From contig CADBDA010000003.1 in NCBI GenBank assembly GCA_902793295.1, positions 124,001-188,000 of the forward strand: a stretch of 64,000 nt of DNA, in the 5' to 3' direction. A model generated the notes under the pieces. That model was not told the DNA's origin, did not search any database, and was given only the letters and a program-made list of their open reading frames with translations. Positions 3,646 through 45,857 of the stretch are shown here, piece by piece. The translations under genes were made by a program, and so were the position numbers. Position 1 is the stretch's first letter; the number at the start of each line of letters is the position of its first letter. This DNA is from an uncultured Bacteroidota bacterium (GTDB lineage: Bacteria > Bacteroidota > Bacteroidia > Bacteroidales > P3).

Positions 3646-4089
3646 TTACTTTGCGAGGGGGTTCTCACCCGTAACAGTGATACCCATGCTGCGTGCGGTG
3701 CCGGCCACCATGCTCATAGCTGATTCGATAGTGAAGCAGTTGAGGTCGGGCATTTTGGCTTCGGCGATCTGACGCACCTGTTCCCAAGTGACGGAAGCCA
3801 CCTTGACGCGGTTAGGTTCGGCGGAACCTTTCTGAGCCTTGGAAGCCTCTTTCAGCTGAACGGCAACAGGGGGAGTCTTTACTACGAAATCAAAGGACTT
3901 GTCGGTGTAGACATTGATGATGACGGGCAGAATTTTGCCGGCCTGGTCCTGCGTACGAGCGTTGAACTGCTTGCAGAACTCCATGATGTTGACACCTTTG
4001 GCACCCAATGCGGGACCTACGGGAGGAGCCGGGTTGGCGGCGCCACCTTTGATCTGAAGCTTAATCAATCCTGCAATTTCTTTTGCCAT
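3646..4089 (-). CDS. rplK: 50S ribosomal protein L11
   Basis: This is the GTPase-centre protein, bound to the thiostrepton loop of 23S rRNA and needed for the stringent response sensor. The 147 residues are of normal length. The N-terminal domain carries the conserved [20 protein letters not shown] and the C-terminal rRNA-binding domain carries [20 protein letters not shown] and ARSMGITV. The gene lies between nusG and rplA in the standard bacterial order. Confidence 0.99.
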
Positions 4090-4206
4090 TGAATGAAGAT
4101 TTAAAATAATTTGTAATTTACAATGTCTATTTTTGGATCACACTTCTGGAGTGTTTAGCGGATGGAACGGAGAAGCCCTCCGGACTGGCCGGACGGCAGG
4201 GGGAGG

Positions 4207-24727: not shown

Positions 24728-24772
24728 GAGAAGAACTGACGACAAGTTTAAATACAACAGATTATCAAAACA

Positions 24773-26919: not shown

Positions 26920-26955
26920 AAAAAAGGCGTCCTGCGTATGCAGGGCGCCTTTTTT
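26920..26955 (-). terminator. Intrinsic terminator after the giant gene
   Basis: GGCGTCCTGC pairs with GCAGGGCGCC around the loop GTAT, with one T-G pair, and with six A on one side and T on the other. On the minus strand it ends the giant gene 22 bases after its stop. Confidence 0.88.
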
Positions 26956-26977: not shown

Positions 26978-29900
26978 TTACTTCTTGACAATCTTGCGTA
27001 CCGTCACGCCTTGCGGCAGCGTGATACGTAAGGTGTAAGCACCTTCGCCAAGGTTGGAGATATCGAATGTGTTGGTGCCCTCGAAGGTAGCCACGCGACG
27101 GCCGACGATATCGAGAACTTCGACCTTGACCACGTCATCGGCGGAGATGGTGACACGACCGCGAGTCGGGTTCGGGTAGACGTTGATTTCGTCGAACGAG
27201 ACGACATCGATACCAATCTGGTTCACGTTGACATGCAGGTTGACGGTGCTGTCGCAGCCGTTCACAGTCGAAGCGTAGAAGATGTAGTCGCCGGCAGCCA
27301 TGATTTCATTGCCGCGATAATTGTACGGCAGGTCGGTCGAGTTGACGGTGATGGTATCGAAGATTTCGATGCTCTGGTTGATGGTCAGGTTGAGGGTTAC
27401 GACGCTATCGCATCCGTTAGCATTGGTGAGCGTGAAGGTAGGCTCGTTGGTGCTTTCGGTGTAGTTAACACCGTCGATCCAGATGTAGCCGTCGCAAGCC
27501 TGCTGGACATCGACGCCAGAGGTAGCGTGGTTGATGGTGAGGTTGAGCGTCACGACGCTGTCGCAGCCGGCAGCATTGGTGAGCGTGAAGGTCGGGATGT
27601 TGGTGGAAGCCGTGTAGGTCACGCCATCGATCCAAGTGTAGCTTTCGCAAGCGTTCTTCACGTCGGTACCAGTGTTGCTATGGTTCACCGTGAGGTTGAG
27701 GGTAACGATGCTATCGCAGCCGTTGACCGAGGTGTACGTCTCGGAGAAGGCACCCGAAGCGGTGTAGGTGTTACCATTCCAAGTGTAGCTGTCGCATGCC
27801 GTTTCAGCAATATTGTTAACAATACTGTTGGCGATGGTCAGGACGAGGGTGACAATGCTGTCGCAGCCCAGATCCGTCGTGTAGGTATGCGTGTAGACAC
27901 CACCTGTCAGATAGGTATTGCCATTCCAGGTGTAGCTGTCGCAAGACGTAATCATCAAGGTGTTGTTGATGGAAGGAGCGATAGTCAGGTTGAGGGTCAC
28001 GATGCTGTCGCAGCCGCTGGCAGCGGTGTAGGTATGCGTGTAGTTGCCGCTGGTGGTGTAGGTGACACCTTCCCAGGTATAGCTACCGCAAGCAGTAGCG
28101 CTGATGGTGGAAGTGACAGCAGGCGAGATGGTCAGATTGAGGGTCACGACGCTGTCGCAGCCGTTAGCAGCGGTGTAGTTCTGCGTGTAGTTACCGCTAG
28201 TGGTGTAGGTGGCACCGTTCCAGGTATAGCTGCCGCAGGTAGTTTCGCTGATAGTAGTTGCGACCGGCTGGTTGATTGTCAGGGCGAGGGTGACAATGCT
28301 GTCGCAGCCGTTGGTGGCGGGAGTGGTATGCGTGTAGTTACCGCTGGTGGTATAAGCAGTACCGTTCCAGATGTAGCTGCCGCAAGCCGACACGGCCAGC
28401 ATGCTGGTCTTGGGCTGGTTGACAGTCAGCGCGAGGTTGACGATACTGTCGCAGCCGTTGGCGGCGGTGTAGGTGTACGAGTAGATACCGCTGGTGGTGT
28501 AGGTAACGCCGTTCCAGGTGTAGCTGTCGCAAACCGTGGTGTTGACAGTGTTCGTGATAGCGGGGCTGATGGTCAGGTTGAGGGTGACCACGCTGTCGCA
28601 ACCGGCGGCAGAGCTGAAGTTCTGCGTGTAGCTGCCCGTCTGATTGTAAACCGCACCATTCCAGGTGTAGCTGCCGCAAGCCGTAGCATTGACGGTGTTG
28701 GTCACCTGGGTGTTGATGGTCAGGTTGAGGGTCACGACGCTGTCGCAACCGTTAGCAGCCTCGAGCGTCTGCGTGTAGTTGCCGCTCTGGGTGTAAGCCT
28801 GACCGTTCCAGACGAAGAAGTTGCAAGCTTCAGCGGTTTCGGTGCCGGTGGTGCCATTGTTGATCGTCAGGAGGAGGGTATCGACGCTGGCGCATCCGTT
28901 GTTGTCGGTATAGTTGTTGGTATAGACGCCGCTGGTGGTATAGGCGGTGCCATTCCAAGTGTAGCTGTCGCAAGCGACAATGGTCTCAGCGCTGTGCTGG
29001 CCATTGTTGATGGTCAGAAGCAGGGTGATGAGACTGTCGCAACCATTAGCCGACTGGAGGAGTGCATGGTAGTAACCCGAAGTGGTGTAGGTTTGACCGT
29101 TAACAGGCCAAGTGAAGCTTTCGCAAGCGACAACCGTATCGAACGAGACGGACATTGAGTTGACCGTCAAGAAGAGCGTGTCGACGCTGGCGCAGCCCTC
29201 AGCCGTGTTGTAGTGGTGGTAGTAGGTACCCGACTGGTTGTAGTTGACACCATGCCAATTGTACGTACCGCAGTTGGTAACCGATTCACCGCTGTTGGTG
29301 TTGTGGTTCACCGTCAGGTGGAGCGAGTCGGTGCTGGCGCAGCCCTTAGCGTTGATGTAATCGTATGCGTAGTCGCCCGATTCGGTATAGACGGCGCCAT
29401 TCCAAAGGTAGCTATCGCAGGCGACCACGTCGCTATTGCTGTTGGTGCTGTAATTGACAGTCAGATGGAGCACATCGACGCTCGGGCATCCGTAATCATT
29501 CTCGTAGTCAAATGAGTAGTCGCCCGATTCGGTGTAGGTCTGGCCGTCGATATCCCAGAGATAGCTGTCGCAAGCGGTAACGGTGTACTCGTTGCTGGTC
29601 TTATGATTGACAGTGAGGACGAGGTATTCGGTACCGTTGCAGCCGTTGTCGGTGGTGTAGTTGTAGGTGTAGACACCGCTGGTGGTGTAGGTCTCGCCGT
29701 TGCCGGAAGTCCAAGTGTAGCTGTCGCAAGCGGTCTCTTCAATTGTATTGATGACGCTGCTGTTGACAGTCAGGTGGAGGACATCGGTGCTGGCGCAGCC
29801 GTTGCCGTCGGTGTAGTTGTAGGTATAGTCACCGGTCTCGGTGTACTGGGTACCGTTCCACATGTAGCCGTCACAGACGGTTTCGGTGTACTCGGTGCCA

Positions 29901-32900
29901 GCGTTCTGGTTGATGGTGAGCGTGAGAACATCGACCGTGGTGCAGCCAGCAGCGTTAGCATAAGCCTCGCTGTTGTAGACGCCGCTTTCGGTGAAGGTGT
30001 ACTCGTTGTTGTCGCCAGCAGTCCAGATGTAGCTATCGCAAGCGGTAGCCTCGATCGGGTTGTTGATGACATCGCCCACAGTGACGGTCAGGGTGACGAT
30101 GCTGTCGCAGCCGTTGACGGTGGTACGGTTGTCGGTGAAGGTGTATTCACCAGCCGTAGGCATGTCAGCAGCAGCGATATCGAAGCCGTTGGCTTTGTAG
30201 CCGTTGCCGAGGCAGATCTGAGCGGTGAGAGCCGTGGTCTTGGTCGGGTTGACGGTGAGGACCAGACGCTCATTGCTGATGCAGTTGCCATCGTTGTCGG
30301 TCTCTGTCACGTCGTAGGTGCCGGCCTCAGTGTAGGTCAGGCTATCAACGCTCCAGAGGTAGGACTCGTTGTCGCAGATGGCGATCTCGGTGACGTTCTG
30401 CGGGTTGATGGTCAGATAGAGGAAGATTGTCGAGTCGCAGCCCGTAGCGGGGTTGGTGACCGTTGTCGAAGTCTCAACGCTCTCGTCGAGCACAGCGACC
30501 TCTTCGCCTTCCACGATCCAAGTGTAAGGACCGCAGTTGGTAACGCGGGCGATACCGAAGGCGCGGCCGTTGCCGATGGTGAGGTAGAGGCTATCGGTGA
30601 CGGTGCAACCATTAGCATCGGTGTAGGTGTACTCGTAAGCACCCGAAGTGGTGAAGGTACCGGCAACGGTGTTGTCGGAAGCCGTCCAGGTGTAGCTGTT
30701 GCATTCGACAGCCGACATCACATTCAGCGTGCTGTTGTTGATGGTGAGGTTGAGCACATCTTCGCTGGGGCAGTTGTTAGCGTCAGCATAGTCGTAGGTG
30801 TAGACACCGCTGGTGGTGTACTCCGTACCATGCCAAGTGTAGCTGTCGCAAGCGCTTTCGGTGTACTCGGTGCTGCTGTTGACATTGACAGTGAGGTTGA
30901 GTGTATTGGTGCTCGGGCAGCCGTTAGCAGCCTCATAGTCGTAGGTGTAGACACCGCTGGTGGTGTAGGTCTCGCCATTGCCACCTTCGGCAGCCAACCA
31001 AGTGTAAGTGTCGCAAGCCGTCTTGGTGAAGGACTGGTTGCTGTTGTTACGGATGGTCAGGTGCAGGGTGTTGGTGCTCGGGCAGCCGTCAACCGTCAGG
31101 TAGTCGTAGGTGTAACCCTCGGCCGGGCTGGAAGTAGTGTAGACCGTACCATTGCCACCTTCCTCGGCAGTCCAAGTGTAGCTGTCGCAAGCGTCGACAG
31201 TGTACTCGGTGCTGGTGTTGTGGTTGATGGTCAGGTTCAACGTGTTGGTGCTCGGGCAGCCCTGAGCGGTCTCATAGTCGTAGGTGTAGGTGCCGCTTTC
31301 GGTCAAGGTGGCGCCATTGCCACCGTTGGCAGCGGTCCAGATGTAGTTCTCACAGGAGGCCACATCGTAGGTGGTGCTGGTGTTGTGGTTGATGACGAGG
31401 ATGAGGGTAGCGACGCGGTCGCAAATCAGCGTTTCGCCGTCGACCACGGTGCCAGCCGGCAGATACTGGGTGGCATTGGTGGTGCTTTCGGTGTAGACGT
31501 TACCATACCATTCGTAGCTGTCGCAAGCGGTGCGGCGCTCGGTGGTGTAGGTAATCGGGTGCTGGTTCACGGTGATGTATTCGATAATGCCCGTTGTCAA
31601 GGTATCGTAGATATAGTAGACATGAGCATTGTCGTAGTCGTTGGTAGCGGTGCTGATGGTGTGGTTACGCCAAGTGTAGCTATCCTGGCTTACGCAGATA
31701 TCGGCATTTTCAGCTGTAACCTCCTGGTAGTTGTTGACCAAGTGGACAGTCAGCGTGATGATGCTGTCGCAGTACTGCACTGCCGGGAAGTGGACATCGA
31801 ACTCGACATCTCTTGCAGTGAAGAGCTGCAGTGAATCGGCATTGGCGTCGAAGTGGAATATGGAGTCACCATAATTCAACTGACGGTCGCTGATGTTCAG
31901 CGTCACCTCATCGTTGCCGAGGTAGCTCTGGGTGAGGGTCAATGCCAGCATGTAGATGCTGTCGTAGTTGTTCTCCTGAGCCACAGTGTAGGTCGGGTTG
32001 TAGTAGACATACACACCATTGCTGGTCTTGTAGAGAGGAGCAACGTTGTCGGTATTCAGGTTGGCAGCGCGCTCAGCGGCATCGATGTAGACATAGGTCT
32101 CACCATTGCGCCAAGTGTAGCTGTTGCAGTTCACCACATTGTCGATGCCGAGCAGAGCGGTACCGATGTTGAGGGTGATGTTCAGCGTGCTGTCACAGCC
32201 AGCCACGTTGGTGTAGTTCTCAACGAGGTTGTAGACGCCTTCGCCGAACAGTTCCTGATGCTGATCCTGATAGGTGTAGCGGTACGAGCCGTCGCTGATG
32301 TAGAGGACGCTGTCGTAGCTGCTTGCATGGTTAACGGTCAGGGTCAGGGTGTTGGTGGTGGCGCAGCCATTGCCGTCGGTGGTGCGGGCTGTGTAGTTAC
32401 CCGTAGCGTTGTAGAGACGGTTGTTGACAGACCAAGTGTACTCGTCGCAAGCAACGATAGTGTCGTTGATAGTGCTGGTGTTGACATTGATGGTCAAGTG
32501 CAGCGTATCGACACTCGGGCAACCAGCAACATTGGTGTAGCTGTACTGGTAGTCACCGCTGGTGGTGTAGGTGGTGCCATGCCATTCGTAGCTGTCGCAC
32601 TGGGTCATTGTCTCGCTATTATGGGTAGCGTTGTTGATGGTCAGGTGCAGTACGTCGGTGCTGGCGCAACCGGCAGCGCTGGTGTAGTCGTAGTTGTAGT
32701 CGCCACTGGTGTAATACATAGTGCCATTCCATTCGATGCTGTCGCAAGCCTCGTCGGTGTATTCGGTGCTTGTGGGCAGGTTGATGGTCAGGTTGAGCGT
32801 ATTGACACTCGGGCAACCGTTGGTAGCATTATAATTATATGTATAAGTACCGCTGGTGGTGTAGGTCAGGCCGTCGCCGCCTTCGGCAGAAGCCCATACG

Positions 32901-35900
32901 TAGCTGTTGCAAGCAGCCTCGGTGAAGGTCTGGTTACTGTTGCTGTCGATGGTCAGGTGCAGCGTGTCGGTGCTGGCGCAACCGGCACCATTGGTATAGC
33001 TGTACATATAATCACCGCTGGTGGTATAGGTCTGGTTGTTGCGAGTCCAGGTGTAGGTGTCGCAAGCTGCATCGGTGTAAGCAGTGTTGCTGTTGTAGTT
33101 GACGGTGAGGGTCAGCGTCTTCGTGGCAGCGCACTGGTTGGCATCGGTGTAGTTGTAGACGTAGGTACCGCTGGTGGTGTAGGTCAAGCTGTCGCCGTCA
33201 TTCCAGGTGTAGCTGTCGCAAGCTGTTGCAGTAGCCGTGGTGGCGTTGATGGCGCGCTGGTTGACCTTGAGGACGTGGACGAGCTCGTTGAGCGTACCGT
33301 CGTTCTCGGTCTGGTAGAAGTAGTAGGTATGACCCGGGGTGCCGATGGTGTAGTCGGTGCCGTTCCAGTTGTAGGATGTTTCGTCGGCGCAGGCATAGAC
33401 CTCGGTGGTGTCATAGTTGTTGAAGATATTGATGGTATACGTACGGTAGTCGTTGCAGTATGCTACCGAACCAACGCCGAGTGTTCTGACGATAGGCGTT
33501 CCGATGCTGTCGAAGGTGAAGGTGACAGTAACATCGTCAGGATCGCCATCGATGGTGTAGCTGCCAAGGCTGACAGGCACGTTGATGGTCTCGGTGCTGT
33601 AGGTGGCCTCAAGCAGGTTGAGGTGCAGCACGCGGACAGCCGTCATGGCGCCGTTGGCGTCAAAGGTGGTGTCGGTCGGATAGGTGTAGACATACTGGTT
33701 AGCAGTAGCATCCTTGTACATTGCCATACCGTGGCTCTGGCGCTCGCTCATCGGGATCCAGATGTAGTTGTGGCCAGTGCCGCCGGCGGCGACTTCCCAA
33801 GTGTAGCTGCCGCAAGCCTCGACATTGACCTCGGTTATATGATCGTCGGCGACAATCGGGATAATGAGATGCAGATGGTCGATGCTGTCGCAACCATACT
33901 GGTTGGTGAAGGTGTAGGTGATGGTGCTATCGAAAGGAGCAGTGTACATCGTACCAAGATAAGTGTACGAACCAGCCTCGTTGATAACGAGAGAACTGTT
34001 GGTCTCATTCACCGGATTGAGGGTCAGGTGCAGGACGCTGTCTCCCAAGCAGCCGTTGGCATCGGCGAAGTTGACAGTGTAGTCGTTGACAACCGGAGCC
34101 TCTGTGGTGTTGGTGTAAGTAAGACCCGTGCGGTTCCAAGTATAGGTGGCACAAGCCGTCTCGGCCAGTTCAACGCCATTGTTGACATTGATGGTCAGAG
34201 CCAGGGTGACGACACTGTCGCAACCAGCCAGGTTGGTGGTGGTCCAGGTGTAGATGCCGCTAGCGGTGTAGGTTTCACCGTTGCCGTTGGTCCAAGTGTA
34301 GCTGTCGCAAGCCACCTCGGTGACTGTCTCAGCATTGCTGACATTGACCGTGAGGTTGAGCGTCACGACGCTGTCGCAACCAGCCGCATTGGTGGTGGTG
34401 TAGACATAATCGCCGCTCGTGGTGTAGGTCTGGCCGTTGCCGTTGGTCCAGGTGTAGCTGTCGCAAGCAGTCTGGGCAACAGTCTTGGCGGTGTTACGCA
34501 GGACAGTGAAGTAGATGATGGTATCAACGCCATTGCCAAGCGTGCCGTTGTCGGCAGCGTTGGTCGGGATGACGAAGGAGCTGGTACCATAGGTGACGGT
34601 GTAGGGCAGTGCGTTCTCACAGACGGAGATGGGATCAACCATCGTGAGGTGTAACAGATGAACATCGTCGCAATCGCCGCTGGCGACAGGAGCGTCATAA
34701 TAGACGTTGTCTGTGCTCTGGGTGTAGGTGGTACCGTTCATCCAGGTGTAGTCAGCATTGGTGAGGACGAAGTGTTCGGTCAGTGTGTTCTGCAGCACTT
34801 TATAGGTACGGTGGGTGATGGCATCGCAGTACTGGGTTGCATCGTAGGTTCCTTCGTAAGGAACGTCGAAGGTCTTAGTCTCGCGATAGGTCACTGCATC
34901 GGGGCCTTCATAGGTGGTGCAGACATTGACGGTATCAAAGACTTCGTAGGTGCCGAGGACGGTCAGGTTGAGAATTCTGTTGACTTCGCAACCTGTAGCA
35001 GTGTTGGCAACAACAACTGTGTCGACATATTCGCCGGCCTTGCCGTAGGTAATGCCGTTGGCATCCCATTCGAAGTTGTCTTTGTAGCAAACAGTATAGA
35101 CCTCGGTCTCGGTGGTTGACGGGTTGACCGTGTAGGTGATGGTGACAATGCTGTCACAACCAAGGGCGGTCTGCCAGTTGGCAACAACGGTATTGTTGTA
35201 AGCCACCTCGTTGAGAGCGCCGGGGATGGTCAGAACGACCTCAGCGCCATCGTGGTTGGCGTCGGCGACGACAACTTCATACTGGTTGTTTTCTGTGTTG
35301 AGGACGAACTCGCTCTCGCAGAAAGTCAGAGTGGCGGTCTCATTGTAGACCGGGTTGACAGTCAGGTTGACCTGCTTGGTCATCGGGCAACCGGCAGCGT
35401 TGAGGCTGCTGTTGTCCCAAGTCAGCAAGTTCTCGCCAACATTCAAGTCATTGCCATAGTAGGTAGTGCTGTTAGCAGCCGTCCAACTGCTGTTCTGGCA
35501 GATGGTGACGACATCGGTTACCTCTACGGTAGGATACTTCGGCGTGAGGCGGAGCACCTCGATGCGGCTGCAGCCATTGGTGTACTGCTGCGGCATCTCG
35601 TAGCTCATATTGTAGACAGCGGCACCATTGACCATATCGGCAGTGATGGTGGCCACACTGTACATAACAGGAGCCTCTTCGGTACCGACATTGACCATCC
35701 ATTCATACGGCAGACACTCGGTAGCCACCGTAGTGTGATAGTTGGAGTGGTTGATGGTCAAGTGGATGCGAGTCAGCTCATCCTGGCCGTAGACATCGGC
35801 ATTGGGACGGGTACGCACCTCGTAGTCACCGCTTTCGCTGATGAAGAGAGGTTCGATATGACCCTGGCAGTCGTTCTCGTCTGTGAAAACAACGGCGTTG

Positions 35901-38900
35901 GGAATCTCATACTCGTCGCAGGTGTCGATGGTGATCCAGTTGAGGGTATTGATGATGGGATTCAGCACGAGGTGGAGCTGTGCGATCTCGTTGCAGCCGT
36001 CACCATTCTCGCCGGTAACAAATTCGATACCGTCGGTGACGTTGACGTCGAGGCTGTAGGTCTCGCCATCAATCCAGGTGAAGTTGTTGGCATCGCGGAC
36101 ACAGTGGAAGTCCTCGTGGTAGCTGCGGTAGTTGACCGTCAGGTCGAGGGTGACGACGGAGTCGCAACCCCACTGGTTCTGCAGCGTGAAGGTAGGTTCA
36201 TTGGTAGTAGCGGTATAGCTGACACCGTTGAGGTCCCAAACATAGCTGTCGCAAGCCGTTACGGTCTGGACGCCGGTGTTCTGGTAGTTGACGGTGAGGT
36301 TCAGCGTGACGACGCTGTCGCAGCCCTTGGTGGTAGCCAGGGTGACAGGGTATGCGCCGCTCTCGGTGTAGGTCTGGCCGCTGACAGCCCATGTGTAGCT
36401 GTCGCAGACAGTCTGCTCAAGAGCAGTGGCAGCCGGATGGTTGACAACGAGGTTGAGGTTCTTCTGAACCGGGCAGTCGCCGCTGTTGTCGACATAGGTC
36501 AGCAAGGTGGTCTCGCTGGCCACGATGGTCTGGTCGCCCCAAGTGACGCTGGAGCCTTCGCAGACCTCGCGGTTGCTGTTCTCGACACCCATCTCTTCGA
36601 AGGTGAAGGTCAGGTGGACCAAGCTGTCGCAGCCGTGGCCGATGGTGAAGTTCTGGTCGTAAGCGCCGTTGGCGGTGATGGTCTGCTCGCCCCAGGTGTA
36701 GGGGTTGTTGGTGTAGCAGACAAGCAGCGTGTCGCTCAGCTCGTACGACGGATAGACGGTGACCGTGGAGGTGCTAAATTCATTCTGGCAACCGTTCTGG
36801 TCGGTGACGGTGACGGTGTATGCTCCCGTGTTAGCAGCAGCAGTGGTGGCAACAGCAGTGGTAGCACCGGTGTTCCAGCTGTAGCTGTAGCCCTCGACGG
36901 TGGAGGCGGTCAAGGTCACGATGCTGTCGCGGCAGGTTTCGCCGACCGAAGCGGTGGCGGTGACAACGGGCAGCGGATTGACCACAACCTCTAACGAAGC
37001 GGTGGCGGTGCAAGCGCTGGCGTTGCTAGTAGTAGCCGTGACGGTGTAGGTGGTTGTCACGGTGGGGTTGACGGTGATGCTGGTGCCCGTGGCGCCGGTG
37101 CTCCAACGATAGGTGGCATCGACGTTGTTGGCGTCAGCCAGGGTCAGCGTGGCGCTCTGGCCGTAGCAGATAACGCTGTCGCCGCTGATGCTCAACTCCG
37201 GTACGGGAACCGTGGTGACAGTCAGCGTGGCGGGCAGCGAGGTGCAGCCAGTCGTCGGGTTGGTGGCAATCACCGTATAGGTACTGCTCTCGTGCGGATT
37301 GACGACGCGGTTGTCATTAACGCTCTGGTCTTCCCATTCGAAAGTTGCGTTGGCGTTGTTGCTGCGGGCCAAGAGGGCGAGGTCAGCATTGTCACAGTGA
37401 GCATTGATGGCGGTAACCTGACGGTTGTTGACATAGATACCAGCCGAGGGTGCGGGATTGACCTGCAGGTTCAAGATGCCGGTCGAATCGGCGCCGTACT
37501 GGCTGGTCAATGCTACAGTGTAGGTACCGGTAGAGGCATACTGATTGCCGTAGAATGCGAACGTGTCACGCTCACAGATTGTGGCGTTGTAGGTCAGGTT
37601 GTAGGTCGGGTGGACAGTCAAGTTCATGCTGTAGTTGACGCTGTCGCATCCGGCCACATTGATGTAGGTGTAATCAGCTGTTCTCGTCAAGTCAGCGTCG
37701 GGAATAGCGGTAGCGTTAGCGTCGTAAGTCAGGCCAGTGCGGACGATGTTGTTCGTATAGGTCTGGCCATTGCGCCAGGTGTAAGTACCGTTTTCTTCGA
37801 CAACTTCATTGATGATGTCGGCTGCAGGCTGCGGGCATTCGCAGCTGACCAGCATCTTGAAGCCATACATATCGCTAAAGGCATTGTCGGCATCGGTGGT
37901 CAGCACCAGTGTGAAGTAGCCGCTATCGGCCCACAGGTTGCTGGAGGTCACATAGTCGATGTCGCCGTTGCCGGTGTAGCGGCCAATCAGGTTGTTGGCG
38001 TTAGCAGCACCGCGATAGACGTTGAGGAAGTCGTAGCCGTTCTCCAGGGTGTAGCTACCGGTGAGGTGAGCCACCTTGCCAGCTTCGGCAGGACGTACAA
38101 CGTAGGTGGTGTTCAAGTTGCCGTGATAGCTGCCGCCATTGGTGGTGTCGGGCAACACATACTCGTTGCAAGCAGCGATCACTTCACCGTTGTCTGCAAG
38201 CATATTGACTTTCTCGCGCAGTTTGACGGTGAGGTCGTCGAGGTAGACAATATTGTATCCGGTGGTCGGTCTTAGTGCACGGAGGGCAATGTAGCTACCC
38301 GTGCCAGCATATTCGCTGAAGTCGACCTCGAAGTACTCGTAGGTGGTAGTGGTAGGCAGAGCGTTTCCGACCACTTCGAAGGTGGAAGCATCCTCAGGAT
38401 CGCTCATCACACCAACCTCGATGTTGCCAACATAGGTGGCTGTTGTGCTGCTTTCGCGAGCAAAGAATCCAACAACCACAGTGTCCAGATCGAATCCAAA
38501 CTGAGGCAGGATAGCATACTGGTCGCCGTAGGATGTTGTATAGTAGGAATAGAAACGCATATGATTGTTGCCACTATGACTATAGCTTGCACTATTGTAG
38601 GCAATGGGGTAGCCGGGATAGCCGGTAGTGGATGTGCCACTTGTAGTGGAAGAAGTGTTGATGTAACTCCAGCAGTTGGGCAGCACGTGATTGTTTCTAG
38701 TGGAACTAGTAGTGCCAGTGAAGCCATCGAAATTCTCCACGAGAGGCATATCGGCATACTGCCAGATACCGCACTGGGTGGTAGCGGTGGCCACTTCACT
38801 CCAAGCACTTCTGTCGGTAGCGCTGCACTTGGCGCGGACATAGAACTCATACTTGGTCGAGTGCTTCAAACCGTTAACCACATAACTGCTGTTGTTGGTA

Positions 38901-41900
38901 GTCTCGACGGGAGTGGCGCGAGTGGTATCGAAGCCTTCCGGTCCGTAGATGACCTCCCAACGGGTGGCAGCGGTCGGAGTGTTTTCGGTCCAACTGAGTG
39001 TAGCCGAGCTGGAAGAAGTATTCGTAACTGTCAGAGCCGTAGGAGCCCAGCAGGTGGGATAGGTATGGAACGTGGTTTTGGTCCAATTGCTGTAGTCGCC
39101 TCCGCCGCAGACGGTACGGACATAGACGTCATAGTCAGTATTGGCATCAAGTGTTGCAGTAATATTATAATTGAATACATTATTTAAATTACTGACAAGC
39201 GTGCCGGCACCCTGGACATCCGGGTTGAAACCGGCAAGACCATACTTCAGCTCAAAGTTGTTGACAACGGGACGCAGGTCGGTGCGAGCAGCCCATTTAA
39301 CAGTCACAACATTGGCAGGAGTGATGGTGTCGATGCTCACACTAGCAGGAGCAAAGCAGGTAATGGTCGGGTCGCAAATTGATCCATTGAAAACAACAGT
39401 CGAACGATAATACGTACGGCTACCACCTGTCAATGATCCAATCTCATCGACTGTATACTGTGAATTGTCTTTATAAGCATAGCGTGTACGATAAGCTGAT
39501 GAATTATAAGTTGTCAATGAAGTAAATCCAGAACTAGATTGGTTTACTCCGGCAGGTTGGTTCATAATGGTGGTAACAACTATGTTGCTTGTACCATCCC
39601 ATGTAAAGGATTTGTCAAAGACATACTCTACAGTACCTGAAGTACCAGCCACTCTAGCTACCGGACCATAGACGTGGGTCTGACCACTCATCGGAACCCA
39701 ATAGGAGGCACCAGTACCAGCAAAATCATTCTGGGTAGTATTGCCCAAGAAGATAGAGAATTCCTTATCATAGGTACCACCAGTACTCCATGCGAATGTC
39801 ATACTGTTGATATCACCAGGCTGCATTCCTGCAGCAATCAGTTCCTCTGCGGTGTAGATTTGCTGACTGACAGTGTTGCCCCAGGCGCTGTAAACAGCTC
39901 CGGCCTGACCTGTAGTCGTACCATCACCAAGTGCAGCCGTATATTCACTGCCAGGAATAGTACCCGGACAAACGGTTCCGAAGGTGCAAGCAGTGCTCCA
40001 GTCGCTCTCGTCGGTGGAAGTGCAGTTGCTCTTCACATAAACATCATATCCGACTGTTGCATCCAAACCAGTCAGCTCAACGCTGTCGGCGGTGCAAGCC
40101 ACTTCTGTACCCTCGGTGGCGAGGTCAAAGCCTGCAAGGCCATACTTCACCGTCCAGGCGGTAGCGTTGCCGTTCTCCGTCCAGCTGATCTTAGCGGTGC
40201 TGTTGGTCACATCGCTTGCGACGACATTGGTCGGGGTGACACAGGCAGGAGTGGTGAAGGTATAAGCAGGGTTAGCGTTGCTCATCTGCAGCCAGGGGCT
40301 CTCGTCGAGAACTGGGCTAGTTGCACAGGTAGCCTTGATATATACATAGTAGGTAGTACCGGCTACAAGACCTGTCAACTGAGCAGTAGCACCAGCTGTA
40401 CCGGGAACGGTCAGTTCAGTATAGTCGGTAGCTGCGGCGGTAGCGGGGTTGAAATCTGCTGCAGCATAACGCACTGTCCAGAACTGAGGCACATCGCCAG
40501 GCTGACGCCAGGTGAGGGTGGCCGAGTTGTAGGCGATATCGTTGGCACCGTAAGTACCATCAATGATCGGAGTCTTGCAGTTGGGGATAAACGGTGTGAC
40601 AAAGTTGTACTTCACCATACGGCCGTTGACACCAGAGCAGATAGCATAGACAAAGACGTCGTAGCTGGTCTGGGCGTTGAGGTTGCTGATGGTATAAGTG
40701 CCAGCGTTGATGGGGCTGACGGTGGTTCCGGCAGACTCGGGGTTGAATCCCTGGGGACCATAGATGATGCCATAGGAAGGATTGGTCTCACCGTTGACAT
40801 CAGTGAAGGTCAGCGTGGCAGCATATTCGGTCTCAGAAAGAGCGATAGCCGTGGTTGGAGCATTGCAGCTACCAGTGTCGCAAGCAGAAATAAGTTTCAT
40901 CCAACTACGATATTTCTGATATTGCTTGGTACCCGAATACGGTAACAAATTATCCGGATCGGGGTTATAAGAATCACTATAGTAAATGATAGCCATATAC
41001 TCACTGGTAGAATAGGTGCGGAAACGAGCACTAGATCCCGAATAGCCGGACGAGTTCTCATCAACGGCAACCACAACGTTGCCCGTACCATTATACACAA
41101 ACGGAGTGGTGAAATTGAACTCGTTCCAACCTTGAGAGCAAAGGAGCGGACCGCTGTAAACAAGTGTCAGTGTGCTAGGATCAACGGTATCGGTGTTCGA
41201 GGAGAACGAACTCTTCGATGTCGTGCCCATATAAATCTGGACATCCTGCTCATTTGTAAGGGGTGAACTATAGTTGTAATTGAACGAAATACCACTAATG
41301 GTTTTTGCACCTCCCATCTCTGCTTCTGTAATCAGCTGTTGAGAATAAGTGTAGCCATAGTAGGTATTCATTGGCATATGATTAGTGGAAAGTGTTGTAC
41401 CGACCACCTCAACTTCGCCACCATTAGCACACAGCGTTCTAAACTCACAGACGTTGCTCCACTCAGTGGGGCCTTCGGGGTTACAGATGGCACGAACGTA
41501 GGCATCATAATCGGTGACCATATAGAGGTAGCTGAGAGCCAAAGTCGGAGTTCCGTTCACAATGAACGAAGTACCATCCTCGTCGGGATTGAAGCCACGA
41601 GCACCGAGCTTCACCTCCCACTGAGTAGAAAGGCCAGCTTCGACCCAAGTGAGGGTGGCCTCGGTGGAAGTCACGCCACTAACGACAAGGTTGTTGGGTT
41701 TGAAGCAGCTGGGAGCAGCAACCAAACGCAACGTGTAGTCGAGAGCCATAGAATAAGTGGTCGAGAAGCAAGGATTGGGATAGCTGCTCGTGTTGCTGAC
41801 ATAGCTGTCGAAATAGCTGTCAGCTCCGGCGATACGCATACGGTGGTCGCCAAGAGGAGCTGTGACGGGGATATTGAAGGAAGCAATCAATGTATTGGGG

Positions 41901-44143
41901 TTGTTGCTAAGGCTCTGTCCACGATAGACAACCTCATCTTCATCCTCAAAATCCATATCGTCGTTCCAGTCCACCCAGATGATAGTACCATAGGTATAGC
42001 CAGTAGCATAGGTAATGCTTACTTCAGCACCGGCACCTGCAAACAGGTCGCCTATCATAGTGCTATGATTCTGGTAAAGACCATTATTTTTGTTTGTATT
42101 ATCGTTAACGACAAGCGAGTTACCAAAAGTCACATTGGTAATACCACTGTTGTCGACCGAAGTCGGGCTGGGAGAACAGTAGCCAAAGGTCCGACTGACG
42201 GGACCAACCCAGTCGCTCTTGTCGTCGGCAGCGCAGTTGCTACGCACGTAGAACTGCCAATCGCCAAGGCCAAGACCAGAAATGGTGAAGGGGTTAGTGG
42301 TAGCATCAACGATGGTATAGTCTTCTTCGGTGGTGAAGAGACCATAGGCTATCTGCCAAGCGGTGGCTGTGCCGTTCTCGGTCCACGAGAGAGTCACACT
42401 GTTGCCCGTATGCTCAACCTCTGCCAAGTTACTAGGAATTAAGCAGGTGGGCTGGGTGCGCACCACAACGTTAGCGATAGAAAGTCCCAAATAATCATCG
42501 GCCGAACTGACAAAGGCCAACTGATAGGTTGCCGACGGATTGGGCAACAGCACGACAGCCTTTTCAAGAGTCGAACTATGATTACCATACTGTGCCAAAC
42601 GCACCCATTCGCCTGTAGCGGAGGCACGGTAGCAGAGCCACAGAGAGTCGACTCCACCGCTGTAATCAGGTTCAGCATGGTAGAACTCCACCTGATAGGC
42701 TCCAGTGGGGTTAAGGTTGAAGATGGGAGTAATCAGACGTGCACTAGCTCCAGGTGTGTAGGAGAAACTAGCTTGACCGTTGCCATTGAACGTCCAATGC
42801 GTAGTACCAGTAAGCACCTCTTCGTTCCAACACTGCGGCATGCCATAGTCCTCGAAATTCTGGATGTAGAAGTTGTTGGCACTGACAGCAACAGAAGCAC
42901 AAGGAGTGTTCAAACTGATTGGGCCGACCCAATCAGTAGACAGACCTGATGTAGAACAGTTGGTGCTGATATAGATATCATAAGTGGTAGATCCCTGCAT
43001 CTGGCTGAGAGGCAAGGTATAGGTCAGACCAGTAATATTGTTGACTGCCGTACCTTCATTTTCAGGGTCGAAACCCGAAAGGCCATATTTCAGGTTATAG
43101 CTGGTCACTAGTTCGTTGGGGGAGGTCCAAGTCACAACACCATCGGTATTGACGTTGGGTACGTTGGCATTGAAGCAGCCGGGCAGTGTCGTGGCGGAAA
43201 TTTTGTCGCTCCAACCCGAAGGGGTGCCGCTGCATATCTTGCGAACATAAAAGTAGTAAGTAGTGCTGCCACTAAGGCCAGTAATGTTGGTTGTGAGAGC
43301 CGTGCCATCATTGATGGTTTTGCCTTGGCCTTCGGTATTGGGGTCAAAGTCGGCATCCGTGCTGTATTTGATTTCAAAACCATTGCCATTGCTTGACACA
43401 GTCCAGTCAACCTTGACAGTGTTCCAAGCCGTGGCGGTGGCCAAGGCAGAAGTGGGTTTCACGCAGGCAGGCTGGGTGAAGGAGTAGACCACGCCCTGGT
43501 TGGAAGTGACATCGTAGGCCGGGGCATAGGTAGAAGAGAGCGTACGGGTGGTGAGACCCGAAGTGTAGCGGGTGATGGTGTCCCACGCAGAACCGCCGTT
43601 GGCGCCGCCAACACGGTAGATGTCTTCGTCGGACGACATCATACCAACCAGGACATTGATGCTGCTGCTGATGGTCATGGGACCGTAGCAGAACTCAATG
43701 TCGCCGTTGGGGTAGAGCTTCAGCTGGAAGCTGTAGCTGTTCTGGCCGCTGACGACCTTGCGCCATTCCACCACGAGCTGCTGGGCGCTGCTCTTGGTGT
43801 AGATCGAGGTGGCCGTCGTGGTATAGCCGGAGCTATTGTACAACGGTGCAATCCTCGAGCCGGCAAGACTCGTAAACGACGCACTACCGTCGGGATAGAC
43901 ACGCAACGTGCTGCCCGCGGTGATTTGGTTTTCGCCAAAATACATCGCGAAAGGCATCGACACGTCAACGTAGCTGCCCTGCGTCCACGCAGTGGCTCCC
44001 GAGGTACCCGCGATAGAACTGTAGGTGGCTGTAGCGGCAGCGCCGTCGTACTCACTCACCTTTGCGTTCTGTGCCTGCAGGGTCCATGGCAGCATCAGCG
44101 CCAGGAGGGCAAGCATTCGCAAAAAAGTACTTTTACGTTTCAT
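26978..44143 (-). CDS. Giant secreted multidomain repeat protein with type IX sorting domain (5721 residues)
   Basis: A single uninterrupted frame of 17.2 kb. A signal peptide (MKRKSTFLRMLALLALMLPW.., cleavage near LQA-QNA) leads into a unique N-domain to about residue 230. About nine fibronectin-III-like domains follow (pattern C-x-P-T ... LSWTENG ... W-x-V-x-YG-x-x-GF). They are interleaved with MAM-like modules (424-567 and 1789-1971), a GEVED domain (about 664-804, WVDWNDDMDFEDEDE), two copies of an IYxGxT module (906-1087, 1391-1591) and a CUB-like domain (1984-2103). Two Ig-like domains lie at 2231-2460. About 58 repeats (2462-5639) with CDSYTW...GCDSVVTLNLT make up more than half the protein. 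The C-terminus INVYPNPTRGRVTI ending TVRKIVKK is a type A sorting tail. It is likely a surface adhesin or stalk; the function is not known. Confidence 0.93.
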   Translation of the reverse strand: MKRKSTFLRMLALLALMLPWTLQAQNAKVSEYDGAAATATYSSIAGTSGATAWTQGSYVDVSMPFAMYFGENQITAGSTLRVYPDGSASFTSLAGSRIAPLYNSSGYTTTATSIYTKSSAQQLVVEWRKVVSGQNSYSFQLKLYPNGDIEFCYGPMTISSSINVLVGMMSSDEDIYRVGGANGGSAWDTITRYTSGLTTRTLSSTYAPAYDVTSNQGVVYSFTQPACVKPTSALATATAWNTVKVDWTVSSNGNGFEIKYSTDADFDPNTEGQGKTINDGTALTTNITGLSGSTTYYFYVRKICSGTPSGWSDKISATTLPGCFNANVPNVNTDGVVTWTSPNELVTSYNLKYGLSGFDPENEGTAVNNITGLTYTLPLSQMQGSTTYDIYISTNCSTSGLSTDWVGPISLNTPCASVAVSANNFYIQNFEDYGMPQCWNEEVLTGTTHWTFNGNGQASFSYTPGASARLITPIFNLNPTGAYQVEFYHAEPDYSGGVDSLWLCYRASATGEWVRLAQYGNHSSTLEKAVVLLPNPSATYQLAFVSSADDYLGLSIANVVVRTQPTCLIPSNLAEVEHTGNSVTLSWTENGTATAWQIAYGLFTTEEDYTIVDATTNPFTISGLGLGDWQFYVRSNCAADDKSDWVGPVSRTFGYCSPSPTSVDNSGITNVTFGNSLVVNDNTNKNNGLYQNHSTMIGDLFAGAGAEVSITYATGYTYGTIIWVDWNDDMDFEDEDEVVYRGQSLSNNPNTLIASFNIPVTAPLGDHRMRIAGADSYFDSYVSNTSSYPNPCFSTTYSMALDYTLRLVAAPSCFKPNNLVVSGVTSTEATLTWVEAGLSTQWEVKLGARGFNPDEDGTSFIVNGTPTLALSYLYMVTDYDAYVRAICNPEGPTEWSNVCEFRTLCANGGEVEVVGTTLSTNHMPMNTYYGYTYSQQLITEAEMGGAKTISGISFNYNYSSPLTNEQDVQIYMGTTSKSSFSSNTDTVDPSTLTLVYSGPLLCSQGWNEFNFTTPFVYNGTGNVVVAVDENSSGYSGSSARFRTYSTSEYMAIIYYSDSYNPDPDNLLPYSGTKQYQKYRSWMKLISACDTGSCNAPTTAIALSETEYAATLTFTDVNGETNPSYGIIYGPQGFNPESAGTTVSPINAGTYTISNLNAQTSYDVFVYAICSGVNGRMVKYNFVTPFIPNCKTPIIDGTYGANDIAYNSATLTWRQPGDVPQFWTVRYAAADFNPATAAATDYTELTVPGTAGATAQLTGLVAGTTYYVYIKATCATSPVLDESPWLQMSNANPAYTFTTPACVTPTNVVASDVTNSTAKISWTENGNATAWTVKYGLAGFDLATEGTEVACTADSVELTGLDATVGYDVYVKSNCTSTDESDWSTACTFGTVCPGTIPGSEYTAALGDGTTTGQAGAVYSAWGNTVSQQIYTAEELIAAGMQPGDINSMTFAWSTGGTYDKEFSIFLGNTTQNDFAGTGASYWVPMSGQTHVYGPVARVAGTSGTVEYVFDKSFTWDGTSNIVVTTIMNQPAGVNQSSSGFTSLTTYNSSAYRTRYAYKDNSQYTVDEIGSLTGGSRTYYRSTVVFNGSICDPTITCFAPASVSIDTITPANVVTVKWAARTDLRPVVNNFELKYGLAGFNPDVQGAGTLVSNLNNVFNYNITATLDANTDYDVYVRTVCGGGDYSNWTKTTFHTYPTCWAPTALTVTNTSSSSATLSWTENTPTAATRWEVIYGPEGFDTTRATPVETTNNSSYVVNGLKHSTKYEFYVRAKCSATDRSAWSEVATATTQCGIWQYADMPLVENFDGFTGTTSSTRNNHVLPNCWSYINTSSTTSGTSTTGYPGYPIAYNSASYSHSGNNHMRFYSYYTTSYGDQYAILPQFGFDLDTVVVGFFARESSTTATYVGNIEVGVMSDPEDASTFEVVGNALPTTTTYEYFEVDFSEYAGTGSYIALRALRPTTGYNIVYLDDLTVKLREKVNMLADNGEVIAACNEYVLPDTTNGGSYHGNLNTTYVVRPAEAGKVAHLTGSYTLENGYDFLNVYRGAANANNLIGRYTGNGDIDYVTSSNLWADSGYFTLVLTTDADNAFSDMYGFKMLVSCECPQPAADIINEVVEENGTYTWRNGQTYTNNIVRTGLTYDANATAIPDADLTRTADYTYINVAGCDSVNYSMNLTVHPTYNLTYNATICERDTFAFYGNQYASTGTYTVALTSQYGADSTGILNLQVNPAPSAGIYVNNRQVTAINAHCDNADLALLARSNNANATFEWEDQSVNDNRVVNPHESSTYTVIATNPTTGCTSLPATLTVTTVPVPELSISGDSVICYGQSATLTLADANNVDATYRWSTGATGTSITVNPTVTTTYTVTATTSNASACTATASLEVVVNPLPVVTATASVGETCRDSIVTLTASTVEGYSYSWNTGATTAVATTAAANTGAYTVTVTDQNGCQNEFSTSTVTVYPSYELSDTLLVCYTNNPYTWGEQTITANGAYDQNFTIGHGCDSLVHLTFTFEEMGVENSNREVCEGSSVTWGDQTIVASETTLLTYVDNSGDCPVQKNLNLVVNHPAATALEQTVCDSYTWAVSGQTYTESGAYPVTLATTKGCDSVVTLNLTVNYQNTGVQTVTACDSYVWDLNGVSYTATTNEPTFTLQNQWGCDSVVTLDLTVNYRSYHEDFHCVRDANNFTWIDGETYSLDVNVTDGIEFVTGENGDGCNEIAQLHLVLNPIINTLNWITIDTCDEYEIPNAVVFTDENDCQGHIEPLFISESGDYEVRTRPNADVYGQDELTRIHLTINHSNYHTTVATECLPYEWMVNVGTEEAPVMYSVATITADMVNGAAVYNMSYEMPQQYTNGCSRIEVLRLTPKYPTVEVTDVVTICQNSSWTAANSTTYYGNDLNVGENLLTWDNSSLNAAGCPMTKQVNLTVNPVYNETATLTFCESEFVLNTENNQYEVVVADANHDGAEVVLTIPGALNEVAYNNTVVANWQTALGCDSIVTITYTVNPSTTETEVYTVCYKDNFEWDANGITYGKAGEYVDTVVVANTATGCEVNRILNLTVLGTYEVFDTVNVCTTYEGPDAVTYRETKTFDVPYEGTYDATQYCDAITHRTYKVLQNTLTEHFVLTNADYTWMNGTTYTQSTDNVYYDAPVASGDCDDVHLLHLTMVDPISVCENALPYTVTYGTSSFVIPTNAADNGTLGNGVDTIIYFTVLRNTAKTVAQTACDSYTWTNGNGQTYTTSGDYVYTTTNAAGCDSVVTLNLTVNVSNAETVTEVACDSYTWTNGNGETYTASGIYTWTTTNLAGCDSVVTLALTINVNNGVELAETACATYTWNRTGLTYTNTTEAPVVNDYTVNFADANGCLGDSVLHLTLNPVNETNSSLVINEAGSYTYLGTMYTAPFDSTITYTFTNQYGCDSIDHLHLIIPIVADDHITEVNVEACGSYTWEVAAGGTGHNYIWIPMSERQSHGMAMYKDATANQYVYTYPTDTTFDANGAMTAVRVLHLNLLEATYSTETINVPVSLGSYTIDGDPDDVTVTFTFDSIGTPIVRTLGVGSVAYCNDYRTYTINIFNNYDTTEVYACADETSYNWNGTDYTIGTPGHTYYFYQTENDGTLNELVHVLKVNQRAINATTATATACDSYTWNDGDSLTYTTSGTYVYNYTDANQCAATKTLTLTVNYNSNTAYTDAACDTYTWTRNNQTYTTSGDYMYSYTNGAGCASTDTLHLTIDSNSNQTFTEAACNSYVWASAEGGDGLTYTTSGTYTYNYNATNGCPSVNTLNLTINLPTSTEYTDEACDSIEWNGTMYYTSGDYNYDYTSAAGCASTDVLHLTINNATHNSETMTQCDSYEWHGTTYTTSGDYQYSYTNVAGCPSVDTLHLTINVNTSTINDTIVACDEYTWSVNNRLYNATGNYTARTTDGNGCATTNTLTLTVNHASSYDSVLYISDGSYRYTYQDQHQELFGEGVYNLVENYTNVAGCDSTLNITLNIGTALLGIDNVVNCNSYTWRNGETYVYIDAAERAANLNTDNVAPLYKTSNGVYVYYNPTYTVAQENNYDSIYMLALTLTQSYLGNDEVTLNISDRQLNYGDSIFHFDANADSLQLFTARDVEFDVHFPAVQYCDSIITLTVHLVNNYQEVTAENADICVSQDSYTWRNHTISTATNDYDNAHVYYIYDTLTTGIIEYITVNQHPITYTTERRTACDSYEWYGNVYTESTTNATQYLPAGTVVDGETLICDRVATLILVINHNTSTTYDVASCENYIWTAANGGNGATLTESGTYTYDYETAQGCPSTNTLNLTINHNTSTEYTVDACDSYTWTAEEGGNGTVYTTSSPAEGYTYDYLTVDGCPSTNTLHLTIRNNSNQSFTKTACDTYTWLAAEGGNGETYTTSGVYTYDYEAANGCPSTNTLNLTVNVNSSTEYTESACDSYTWHGTEYTTSGVYTYDYADANNCPSEDVLNLTINNSTLNVMSAVECNSYTWTASDNTVAGTFTTSGAYEYTYTDANGCTVTDSLYLTIGNGRAFGIARVTNCGPYTWIVEGEEVAVLDESVETSTTVTNPATGCDSTIFLYLTINPQNVTEIAICDNESYLWSVDSLTYTEAGTYDVTETDNDGNCISNERLVLTVNPTKTTALTAQICLGNGYKANGFDIAAADMPTAGEYTFTDNRTTVNGCDSIVTLTVTVGDVINNPIEATACDSYIWTAGDNNEYTFTESGVYNSEAYANAAGCTTVDVLTLTINQNAGTEYTETVCDGYMWNGTQYTETGDYTYNYTDGNGCASTDVLHLTVNSSVINTIEETACDSYTWTSGNGETYTTSGVYTYNYTTDNGCNGTEYLVLTVNHKTSNEYTVTACDSYLWDIDGQTYTESGDYSFDYENDYGCPSVDVLHLTVNYSTNSNSDVVACDSYLWNGAVYTESGDYAYDYINAKGCASTDSLHLTVNHNTNSGESVTNCGTYNWHGVNYNQSGTYYHHYNTAEGCASVDTLFLTVNSMSVSFDTVVACESFTWPVNGQTYTTSGYYHALLQSANGCDSLITLLLTINNGQHSAETIVACDSYTWNGTAYTTSGVYTNNYTDNNGCASVDTLLLTINNGTTGTETAEACNFFVWNGQAYTQSGNYTQTLEAANGCDSVVTLNLTINTQVTNTVNATACGSYTWNGAVYNQTGSYTQNFSSAAGCDSVVTLNLTISPAITNTVNTTVCDSYTWNGVTYTTSGIYSYTYTAANGCDSIVNLALTVNQPKTSMLAVSACGSYIWNGTAYTTSGNYTHTTPATNGCDSIVTLALTINQPVATTISETTCGSYTWNGATYTTSGNYTQNYTAANGCDSVVTLNLTISPAVTSTISATACGSYTWEGVTYTTSGNYTHTYTAASGCDSIVTLNLTIAPSINNTLMITSCDSYTWNGNTYLTGGVYTHTYTTDLGCDSIVTLVLTIANSIVNNIAETACDSYTWNGNTYTASGAFSETYTSVNGCDSIVTLNLTVNHSNTGTDVKNACESYTWIDGVTYTASTNIPTFTLTNAAGCDSVVTLNLTINHATSGVDVQQACDGYIWIDGVNYTESTNEPTFTLTNANGCDSVVTLNLTINQSIEIFDTITVNSTDLPYNYRGNEIMAAGDYIFYASTVNGCDSTVNLHVNVNQIGIDVVSFDEINVYPNPTRGRVTISADDVVKVEVLDIVGRRVATFEGTNTFDISNLGEGAYTLRITLPQGVTVRKIVKK
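27226..36757 (-). repeat. Tandem coding repeats of about 147 bp (about 58 units) in the giant gene
   Basis: Each full unit encodes about 49 residues: a first cysteine in A-C-D-S-Y-T-W, a G-T/Q-x-Y-T-x-S-G turn, aromatic-rich strands, a second cysteine in G-C-D-S-V/I-V and a closing L-N-L-T-I/V-N. I counted 58 units by eye. Units near the 5' end of the gene (above 34000) are irregular, with insertions or lost cysteines. The units at about 27480-28830 are close to identical in length and sequence, which points to recent duplication or conversion there. Some units carry an insert G-G-N/D-G after the tryptophan. Confidence 0.93.
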
Positions 44144-44951: not shown

Positions 44952-45857
44952 TCACTTCTTTGTTCCCCTTTCGCGCGGGTGGGTGTGTTTGTAGGTGTCC
45001 TTCAGATGCTGACGTGAGACATGCGTGTAGACTTCGGTGGCGCTGAGGTCGGTATGGCCCAACAGCTCCTTGATGGCGTTGATATCGGCACCGTCATTGA
45101 GCATGTGGGTGGCAAAACTGTGACGAAACACATGGGGACTGATTTTGTCTGCCTTGGAGAAGATGCCCATATAATGTTTCACCACTTTGGCGACATCGTA
45201 CTGAGTGAAAGGACTGCCATCCTTGCGTACAAAAAAGACCTCTGAACTGATTTCATTCTGCCTTTTTAACGAAAAATAACATTTTATATTGTGTAAAATT
45301 TCATTTTCCAAAGGAATAATTCTTTCCTTGTCGCGCTTTCCCAACACTTTCAGCGACTTAGCACAAAAATCGACCGAACCTTCAGTCAAGCCCAACACTT
45401 CGGCGCGACGGATGCCCGTTTCGTAGAGCAGCCGTAGCAGCAGTTGGTCGCGCCGCCCCTCAAAATCGTCCGGAAATTGGGCATCGTCATATATTTTGGC
45501 TGTTTCTTTCTCGGTGAAGAATACTGGCAGATGGCGTGGAATCTTTGGTGTGGCCACTTTGGCCATGATATCGACACCAACAATTCCCTCACGACGAAGG
45601 AACTTGAAGAACGATCGCAAAACGACCAGTTTGGTTTTAATGGTATTGGCCACAATGCCATCGGCCGCCAATTGCATCTGCCACTCGCGAATCTCAAGAT
45701 GGCTGACCGATTCGATATCGGAGATTTGGAGCGTCGATTCGAGAAAGGATGCAAAGAGGTTCAGATCGGACGCATACTCATCGACTGTGCGCGACGCAAG
45801 ACGACGTTCGACACTGATATACTGCAAGAAAGCATCTATAGCCTCAGAAATCTTCAT
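44952..45857 (-). CDS. xerC: Tyrosine recombinase XerC/XerD family
   Basis: XerC/D recombinases resolve chromosome dimers at dif. The 301-residue protein has a SAM-like N-terminal domain (MKISEAIDAFLQYISVERRL) and a catalytic domain. The tyrosine recombinase residues are visible: R in YETGIRRAEVLGL, K in VLGKRDKERIIPL, H-x-x-R in HVFRHSFATHML, H in LLGHTDLSATEVY and the nucleophile Y in EVYTHVS. The end KDTYKHTHPRERG is typical of the housekeeping type, not of integrases of mobile elements. Neighbours hpf and ribosomal genes support a core role. Confidence 0.93.
   Translation of the reverse strand: MKISEAIDAFLQYISVERRLASRTVDEYASDLNLFASFLESTLQISDIESVSHLEIREWQMQLAADGIVANTIKTKLVVLRSFFKFLRREGIVGVDIMAKVATPKIPRHLPVFFTEKETAKIYDDAQFPDDFEGRRDQLLLRLLYETGIRRAEVLGLTEGSVDFCAKSLKVLGKRDKERIIPLENEILHNIKCYFSLKRQNEISSEVFFVRKDGSPFTQYDVAKVVKHYMGIFSKADKISPHVFRHSFATHMLNDGADINAIKELLGHTDLSATEVYTHVSRQHLKDTYKHTHPRERGTKK

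Follow-up and report, generated by a model that had tools for sequence, protein, structure and literature searches.

Long single-chain adhesins must bear force without unravelling, and the Gram-positive answer is an isopeptide or ester bond inside each domain. How a giant chain of cysteine-bearing repeats could be held together in the Bacteroidota is the question raised by one gene in the window, a 64,000-nucleotide stretch (positions 124,001 to 188,000) of contig CADBDA010000003.1 from an uncultured Bacteroidales bacterium. A preliminary description of this DNA had proposed a secreted protein that could form a disulfide-locked fibre. The analysis presented here confirms what was observed and corrects its interpretation on the central point, the register in which the cysteines pair. 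With a probability of roughly two in three, we favor a surface-anchored stalk that is exported by the type IX secretion system (T9SS), stapled by disulfides across the junctions of its units, and holds a modular, probably adhesive head off the cell. If true, this would be a different answer to the problem of force, one read from evolution in which each junction is crossed by a disulfide, and would come with a named cysteine register and predicted limits of extension.

The giant gene is a single open frame on the minus strand (44143-26978) that encodes 5721 amino acids from an ATG start. The frame previously reported is real, its strand having gone unmentioned; a plus-strand reading of 26978-44143 was rejected on account of many in-frame stops, and the plus-strand open reading frames beneath the gene are antisense frames. 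A search of the gene's DNA yielded no exact direct repeats reaching 40 nt, and close relatives carry the locus too, so that an assembly artefact or short-read collapse is unlikely; the repeat search led us to reject the assembly collapse against which the preliminary description had warned. Directly upstream (44952-45857, minus strand) lies a gene for a XerC/XerD-like tyrosine recombinase, scoring below both equivalog cut-offs. Phase variation driven by this recombinase was considered and rejected, given its XerC/XerD-like nature and the lack of notable flanking inverted repeats. The features of the locus are given below in the order of translation, with C1 and C2 denoting the first and second conserved cysteine of a repeat unit.

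44069-44143, minus strand: signal-peptide-like segment, residues 1-25 (MKRKSTFLRMLALLALMLPWTLQAQ), with n, h and c regions visible by eye
37790-44068, minus strand: head, residues 26-2118 (2.1 kaa), with eight fn3 stretches, GEVED, two choice-of-anchor J stretches and a weak CUB-like stretch (Pfam/NCBIfam)
41729-41980, minus strand: GEVED domain, residues 722-805 (E 3.7e-14)
38225-38737, minus strand: choice-of-anchor J / MAM-like domain, residues 1803-1973 (E 1.3e-12)
37940-38128, minus strand: CUB-like stretch, residues 2006-2068 (E 0.036, below cut-off)
37451-37789, minus strand: first two units, residues 2119-2231, a C2-only / C1-only doublet (repeat HMM, cysteine ledger)
36752-37426, minus strand: three full Ig-like domains, residues 2240-2464, with cysteines in the A-B and F-G loops (GhpA sequence match, E 5.5e-14)
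27218-36718, minus strand: main array of about 55 predicted half-Ig units, residues 2476-5642 (HMM, AF2, covariation)
33227-33973, minus strand: two doublets lacking the putative staples, residues 3391-3639, in the order C2-only, C1-only, C2-only, C1-only (HMM, cysteine ledger)
31532-32278, minus strand: second block of two such doublets, residues 3956-4204 (HMM, cysteine ledger)
27218-27346, minus strand: terminal unit, residues 5600-5642, lacking C1 as expected where no successor unit follows (HMM, co-loss table)
26987-27181, minus strand: type A T9SS C-terminal sorting domain, residues 5655-5719 (Por_Secre_tail E 1.6e-10; TIGR04183; structure match 8glk_D)
26920-26949, minus strand: intrinsic-terminator-like hairpin and T run 3' of the stop codon, read from the sequence as GGCGCCCTGCATACGCAGGACGCC TTTTTT

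The domain architecture predicted from these matches agrees largely with the modules named beforehand. Pfam and NCBIfam recover fn3 in eight stretches of the head (2e-45) as well as the GEVED domain, the Ig-like modules match Ig-like domains of GhpA by sequence, and the MAM-like module corresponds to choice-of-anchor J; the CUB-like assignment could not be sustained at its sub-threshold score. The type IX sorting tail was likewise borne out by Por_Secre_tail and TIGR04183 (about 1e-10, over cut-off), marking the giant as a T9SS cargo, and a structure search placed the tail domain among T9SS C-terminal domains (8glk_D, Z 11.1, rmsd 1.5 over 70 residues). In P. gingivalis, the usual fate of a type A tail is cleavage by PorU and linkage to A-LPS. 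The fn3, Ig and GEVED modules and the great length of the chain would also fit a matrix or scaffold protein of a biofilm, an S-layer-like coat or an enzyme scaffold, and the genome encodes several such giants; however, a Pfam scan of the giant found no dockerin, cohesin, catalytic or S-layer domains and the type A tail predicts attachment to the cell surface, which makes a matrix role quite improbable compared with a tether. Other proteins with the unit bear diverse heads (FG-GAP, BspA-type LRR, IgGFc_binding, Cleaved_Adhesin, collagen, PKD and fn3), so that the unit acts like an interchangeable stalk.

An iterated repeat HMM run on the giant detected 57 copies over residues 2119-5642 with iE<0.01 (consensus TACDSYTWANGTTYTTSGTYTYTYTNANGCDSTVTLNLTVNPSTNET, best iE 7e-24), an array far beyond chance. 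Two of these copies are full Ig-like domains and a few diverged copies were missed, yielding ~55-60 units of ~49 residues, in line with the original count of about 58, and the HMM also upheld the tandem arrangement with two cysteines at fixed motif places. That the repeat is undescribed holds as well: no Pfam or NCBIfam model matches the 49-residue unit, and the unit motif strings tested are printed nowhere in the literature searched. The unit thus defines a Bacteroidota module outside all Pfam/NCBIfam models.

To describe the fold of the unit, AF2 models were compared with covariation (DCA) computed from 1248 two-unit rows (effective 828). A model of seven units plus tail reached a pLDDT of 87.7 and a pTM of 0.41, and a three-unit model a pLDDT of 94.8 and a pTM of 0.66; in the latter, the strands of one unit (A 43-52, C 55-57, D 60-62, F 66-73, G 79-89) agree with the covariation, which displays an antiparallel F-G pair, C-F contacts, a C-D hairpin and, within one unit, strands A and G in parallel at an offset of 38-40. 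Shuffling the second units among rows abolished the A-G signal and left the F-G signal intact. Both approaches therefore recover an Ig-like G-F-C-C' sheet with A parallel to G. Strand B and the second Ig sheet are absent from the unit sequence, from DSSP and from the covariation, hence the name half-Ig: covariation shows each unit, in prediction, as the G-F-C-C' half of an Ig domain, with unit boundaries that follow from the same strand pairing. A hairpin of G(i) with A(i+1), or a solenoid stack, was rejected since covariation carries no antiparallel signal of this kind. A single unit (residues 42-90 of the three-unit model) superposes on entire Ig domains at 2-3 Å. The three-unit model was searched separately, as the tail domain had filled the structure-match list of the longer model; its matches are weak by Z (best 4.5) and its pTM is 0.66, so that the rigidity of the junctions is putative. 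Antibody light-chain matches of the seven-unit profile were rejected as low-scoring composition or Ig resemblances.

The pairing of the cysteines was read from their co-occurrence in 2,238 units of 135 proteins. An early clue came from units without C1 that are followed by a unit without C2, found in 43 cases versus 10.7 expected. In the complete table, C1 of unit i and C2 of unit i+1 are both present in 1634 cases, both missing in 48 (22 proteins) and present singly in 28, yielding a phi of 0.77, an odds ratio of 402 and a p of 1e-67 that counts units as independent, which they are not. This is the sole strongly associated pair in the table, with a phi of 0.06 for C2(i)/C1(i+1) and of -0.04 for C1/C2 within a unit. 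The 48 co-losses compare with a mean of 13.8 and a maximum of 23 in 1000 shuffles, and after redundancy removal 40 co-losses stand against 20 single losses at 21 loci. DCA ranks C1(i)-C2(i+1) among the top couplings at 8.8 sd, dropping to 1.1-1.3 once true neighbors are scrambled. Pairing of C2(i) with C1(i+1), as suggested by the C2-only/C1-only doublets, was rejected on the full co-loss table and the covariation. Applied to full Ig-like arrays, the same cysteine test found 68 of 69 pairs complete, too little variation to inform.

Exceptions to this register are mostly compensated. Where C2 is lost alone, a junction cysteine has been gained exactly 8 residues before C1 in 10 of 13 cases, versus 37 of 1634 ordinary pairs, and where C1 is lost alone an upstream Ig-type or junction cysteine is found in 15 of 15. 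Four loci (L129, L130, L073 and L023) carry a shortened unit without C2 (e.g., CSTTEITACDSYTWHGTSYSASGTYTDGSDTLVLTINH), with the substitute junction cysteine 8 residues before C1. C1 is missing from the unit that directly precedes the tail, and thus has no successor, in 33 of the 40 assignable cases. In the giant itself, a first-in-first-out ledger from residue 2103 onward places 114 cysteines into 57 pairs and leaves none unpaired; 16 of the 114 bear no HMM label and were set by hand, the entries for 2103 and 2759 being assumptions. The two blocks of four diverged units at residues 3391-3639 and 3956-4204 (31532-33973, minus strand) share an identical staple pattern and resemble an internal duplication of a higher-order block.

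Disulfides inside each unit, locking every bead alone, were the earlier expectation, and the fixed motif positions of the two cysteines in each unit agree with it. An even number of cysteines would also result from pairs within full units combined with C2(i)-C1(i+1) bonds inside doublets. Nevertheless, co-loss within a unit is practically missing (4 of 281 departures), the parallel arrangement of A and G places the two cysteines of a unit at either end of the sheet, only C1 is lost from the terminal unit, and the compensatory junction cysteines fit an inter-unit register only, so that we consider pairing within units very improbable indeed. Co-loss and covariation show instead a predicted register of C1 of unit i with C2 of unit i+1. 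Calling the repeats cysteine-paired was thus right in spirit and wrong as to where the pairs lie, and since they lie between units, the demand of the preliminary description that the cysteines of one unit come close together would wrongly have killed the fibre idea.

In the stalk that we propose, each unit would be a minimal half-Ig sheet in which strand A, ending in C1, is followed by strands C, D and F and lastly by C2 and strand G, A and G being parallel. Strand G of unit i would run directly into strand A of unit i+1, and a bond between C1 at the top of unit i and C2 at the lower end of unit i+1 would place a staple over nearly every junction. Tension would then pass from C1(i) through the disulfide to C2(i+1), along 23 residues to C1(i+2), through the next disulfide to C2(i+3), and onward. 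The spacing from C2(i) to C1(i+1) is nearly invariant, 23 residues in 816 of 913 cases, and C1 to C2 inside a unit mostly spans 26-36 residues; spacing is constant along the load path and free off it. Unfolding would extend a stapled unit to no more than ~4.4 nm, where an unstapled one could reach ~17.6 nm. At ~3.3 nm of rise per folded unit (10 residues of strand), the array would form a stiff, nearly inextensible tether of ~190 nm, both lengths being estimates from the strand register. The doublets without staples leave the ladder discontinuous in the giant. A long disulfide-locked fibre thus stands as the likely product of the gene, and the several hundred nanometers first proposed for it appear generous. 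We infer that the pairs are oxidized in vivo and that the stalk is anchored, and suggest a mechanical role for it and an adhesive one for the head.

The source genome (2.66 Mb, 34 contigs, 98.4% complete) encodes T9SS machinery: GldK and PorG score over cut-off, as do 44 of 46 tail hits. PorG is encoded in the window itself by a Pfam DUF6089 gene (23864-24757, minus strand; NF052316, E 3.4e-44, over cut-off), located between the DUF4837 gene and an Omp85/BamA gene and two genes downstream of the epimerase gene that follows the giant. The C-tail of this PorG carries one cysteine (KKKCDNK), compared with the twin-cysteine motif of F. johnsoniae PorG. Pfam models for DsbA, DsbB and VKOR found no match in this genome, and controls matched; the same genome exports proteins with more than 100 cysteines. 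This raises the question of how a bacterium that is probably a gut anaerobe, and lacks these three, could form up to 57 disulfides in one exported chain. A likely anaerobic life, suggested by nearest named relatives that are rumen and hindgut MAGs, and the missing oxidase matches would also fit cysteine pairs that bind metal or act as redox-sensitive thiols. Each site, however, offers only two cysteines, for which the consensus shows no partnering His, Asp or Cys that is conserved, equal pairs are present in marine Flavobacteriales, and periplasmic disulfides are documented in Bacteroidota, the GldK/PorK cysteine being conserved in P. gingivalis (PMC12635249). We therefore regard metal or free-thiol sites as decidedly unlikely, and disulfide staples remain our preferred reading.

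Similar repeats had been known to the preliminary description only from predicted Bacteroidetes proteins; the unit is not confined to such stray predictions. Seven proteins of the source genome bear it, and it is present in all 24 other sampled genomes of the genus, with arrays of up to 105 units. One of these genomes holds a frame longer than the giant (G011, contig C65, L113-L116), with 8794 residues and 105 units. Among 295 other genomes drawn across the phylum, each at least 90% complete, 13 contain the unit (E<=1e-8). Named relatives comprise rumen and hindgut Bacteroidales MAGs, followed by Flavobacteriales, Chitinophagales, Saprospiraceae and Aureispira. The block giant-epimerase-DUF4837-PorG-BamA is kept only in a close clade (L028, L030, L038 and L069); outside it the block lacks the giant and arrays lie at other loci. 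Unit-bearing proteins of two genomes (G023, L111-L112; G002, L123) adjoin a phosphoglucose isomerase gene and have, by eye, CHU_C / type B-like gliding-type ends, indicating that tails of both classes accompany the unit. The unit has weak relatives in a 455-aa protein with two units on an IMG/VR contig filed as viral (L106) and in a 635-kb uncultured phage record (LR745206.1, 27% match). A bolder version of our reading would be a single-chain half-Ig cable with a disulfide at nearly every junction, forming an inextensible tether in anaerobes that lack a known disulfide pathway and rely on another oxidase or on T9SS-coupled oxidation, and representing a widespread, unnamed mechanical module of the Bacteroidota; we put this forward tentatively, as a possible but doubtful extension.

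Among known systems, SprB of Flavobacterium johnsoniae, a giant T9SS-exported surface adhesin ~200 nm long, illustrates that T9SS adhesins of such length are real (PMC12635249). The giant differs from SprB in its type A tail (TIGR04183) and in lacking a Pfam match to SprB repeats; neither these repeats nor the type B tail of SprB-type proteins were found in it. Another is grappling hook protein A (GhpA) of Aureispira sp. CCB-QB1 (PDB 9flp, 9fly, 9flw and others), like the giant a T9SS cargo of tandem Ig-like domains, 5898 aa in length. GhpA is the best Foldseek hit of both AF2 models (E 2.7e-16 and 1.8e-5), and a stretch of three units can be aligned over 137 residues to three GhpA domains in succession (rmsd 4.5, Z 3.3), a low Z that supports resemblance of the models, not membership. 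The giant itself contains three full Ig-like domains of GhpA type with cysteines in the same two loops, and the repeat HMM reaches two Ig-like domains of the giant (iE 3e-6 and 4e-5). GhpA domains have ~80 residues and a strand B, in contrast to the 49-residue unit; against the Bacteroidota Ig-like domain of this type (C..SITLTAS..YSW..TYTVTVTDANGC), the unit corresponds to the C-terminal part (strands C, D, F and G) with the same two cysteines, having lost strand B and ~20 residues. GhpA, the best solved structural match, is secreted by the T9SS and described as a heptamer (PMC11205867), and several chains of the giant could likewise bundle into a hook-like multimer in which C1(i)-C2(i+1) bonds link adjacent chains, an arrangement that would give the identical co-loss signal. 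The strand register within one chain, however, already sets both cysteines side by side, making a bundle unnecessary, and the sequence match to GhpA is limited to Ig-like domains: neither the unit profile nor the C-terminal 1921 residues of the giant match any PDB sequence up to E 1, GhpA included. Such a bundle thus appears unlikely to us, and we retain the stapled single-chain stalk.

A mechanical parallel lies in Gram-positive stalks and pilins such as Spy0128 and Cpe0147, in which covalent cross-links situated along the load path render the Ig-like repeats inextensible (PMC8382745). Their bond lies inside the domain and joins Lys to Asn or Thr to Gln, whereas the disulfide proposed for the giant would join consecutive units; the likeness would be one of analogy, not homology. 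Giant T9SS-exported Ig-like stalks are already known, and what would be new here is the specific structural principle proposed, staples across the junctions.
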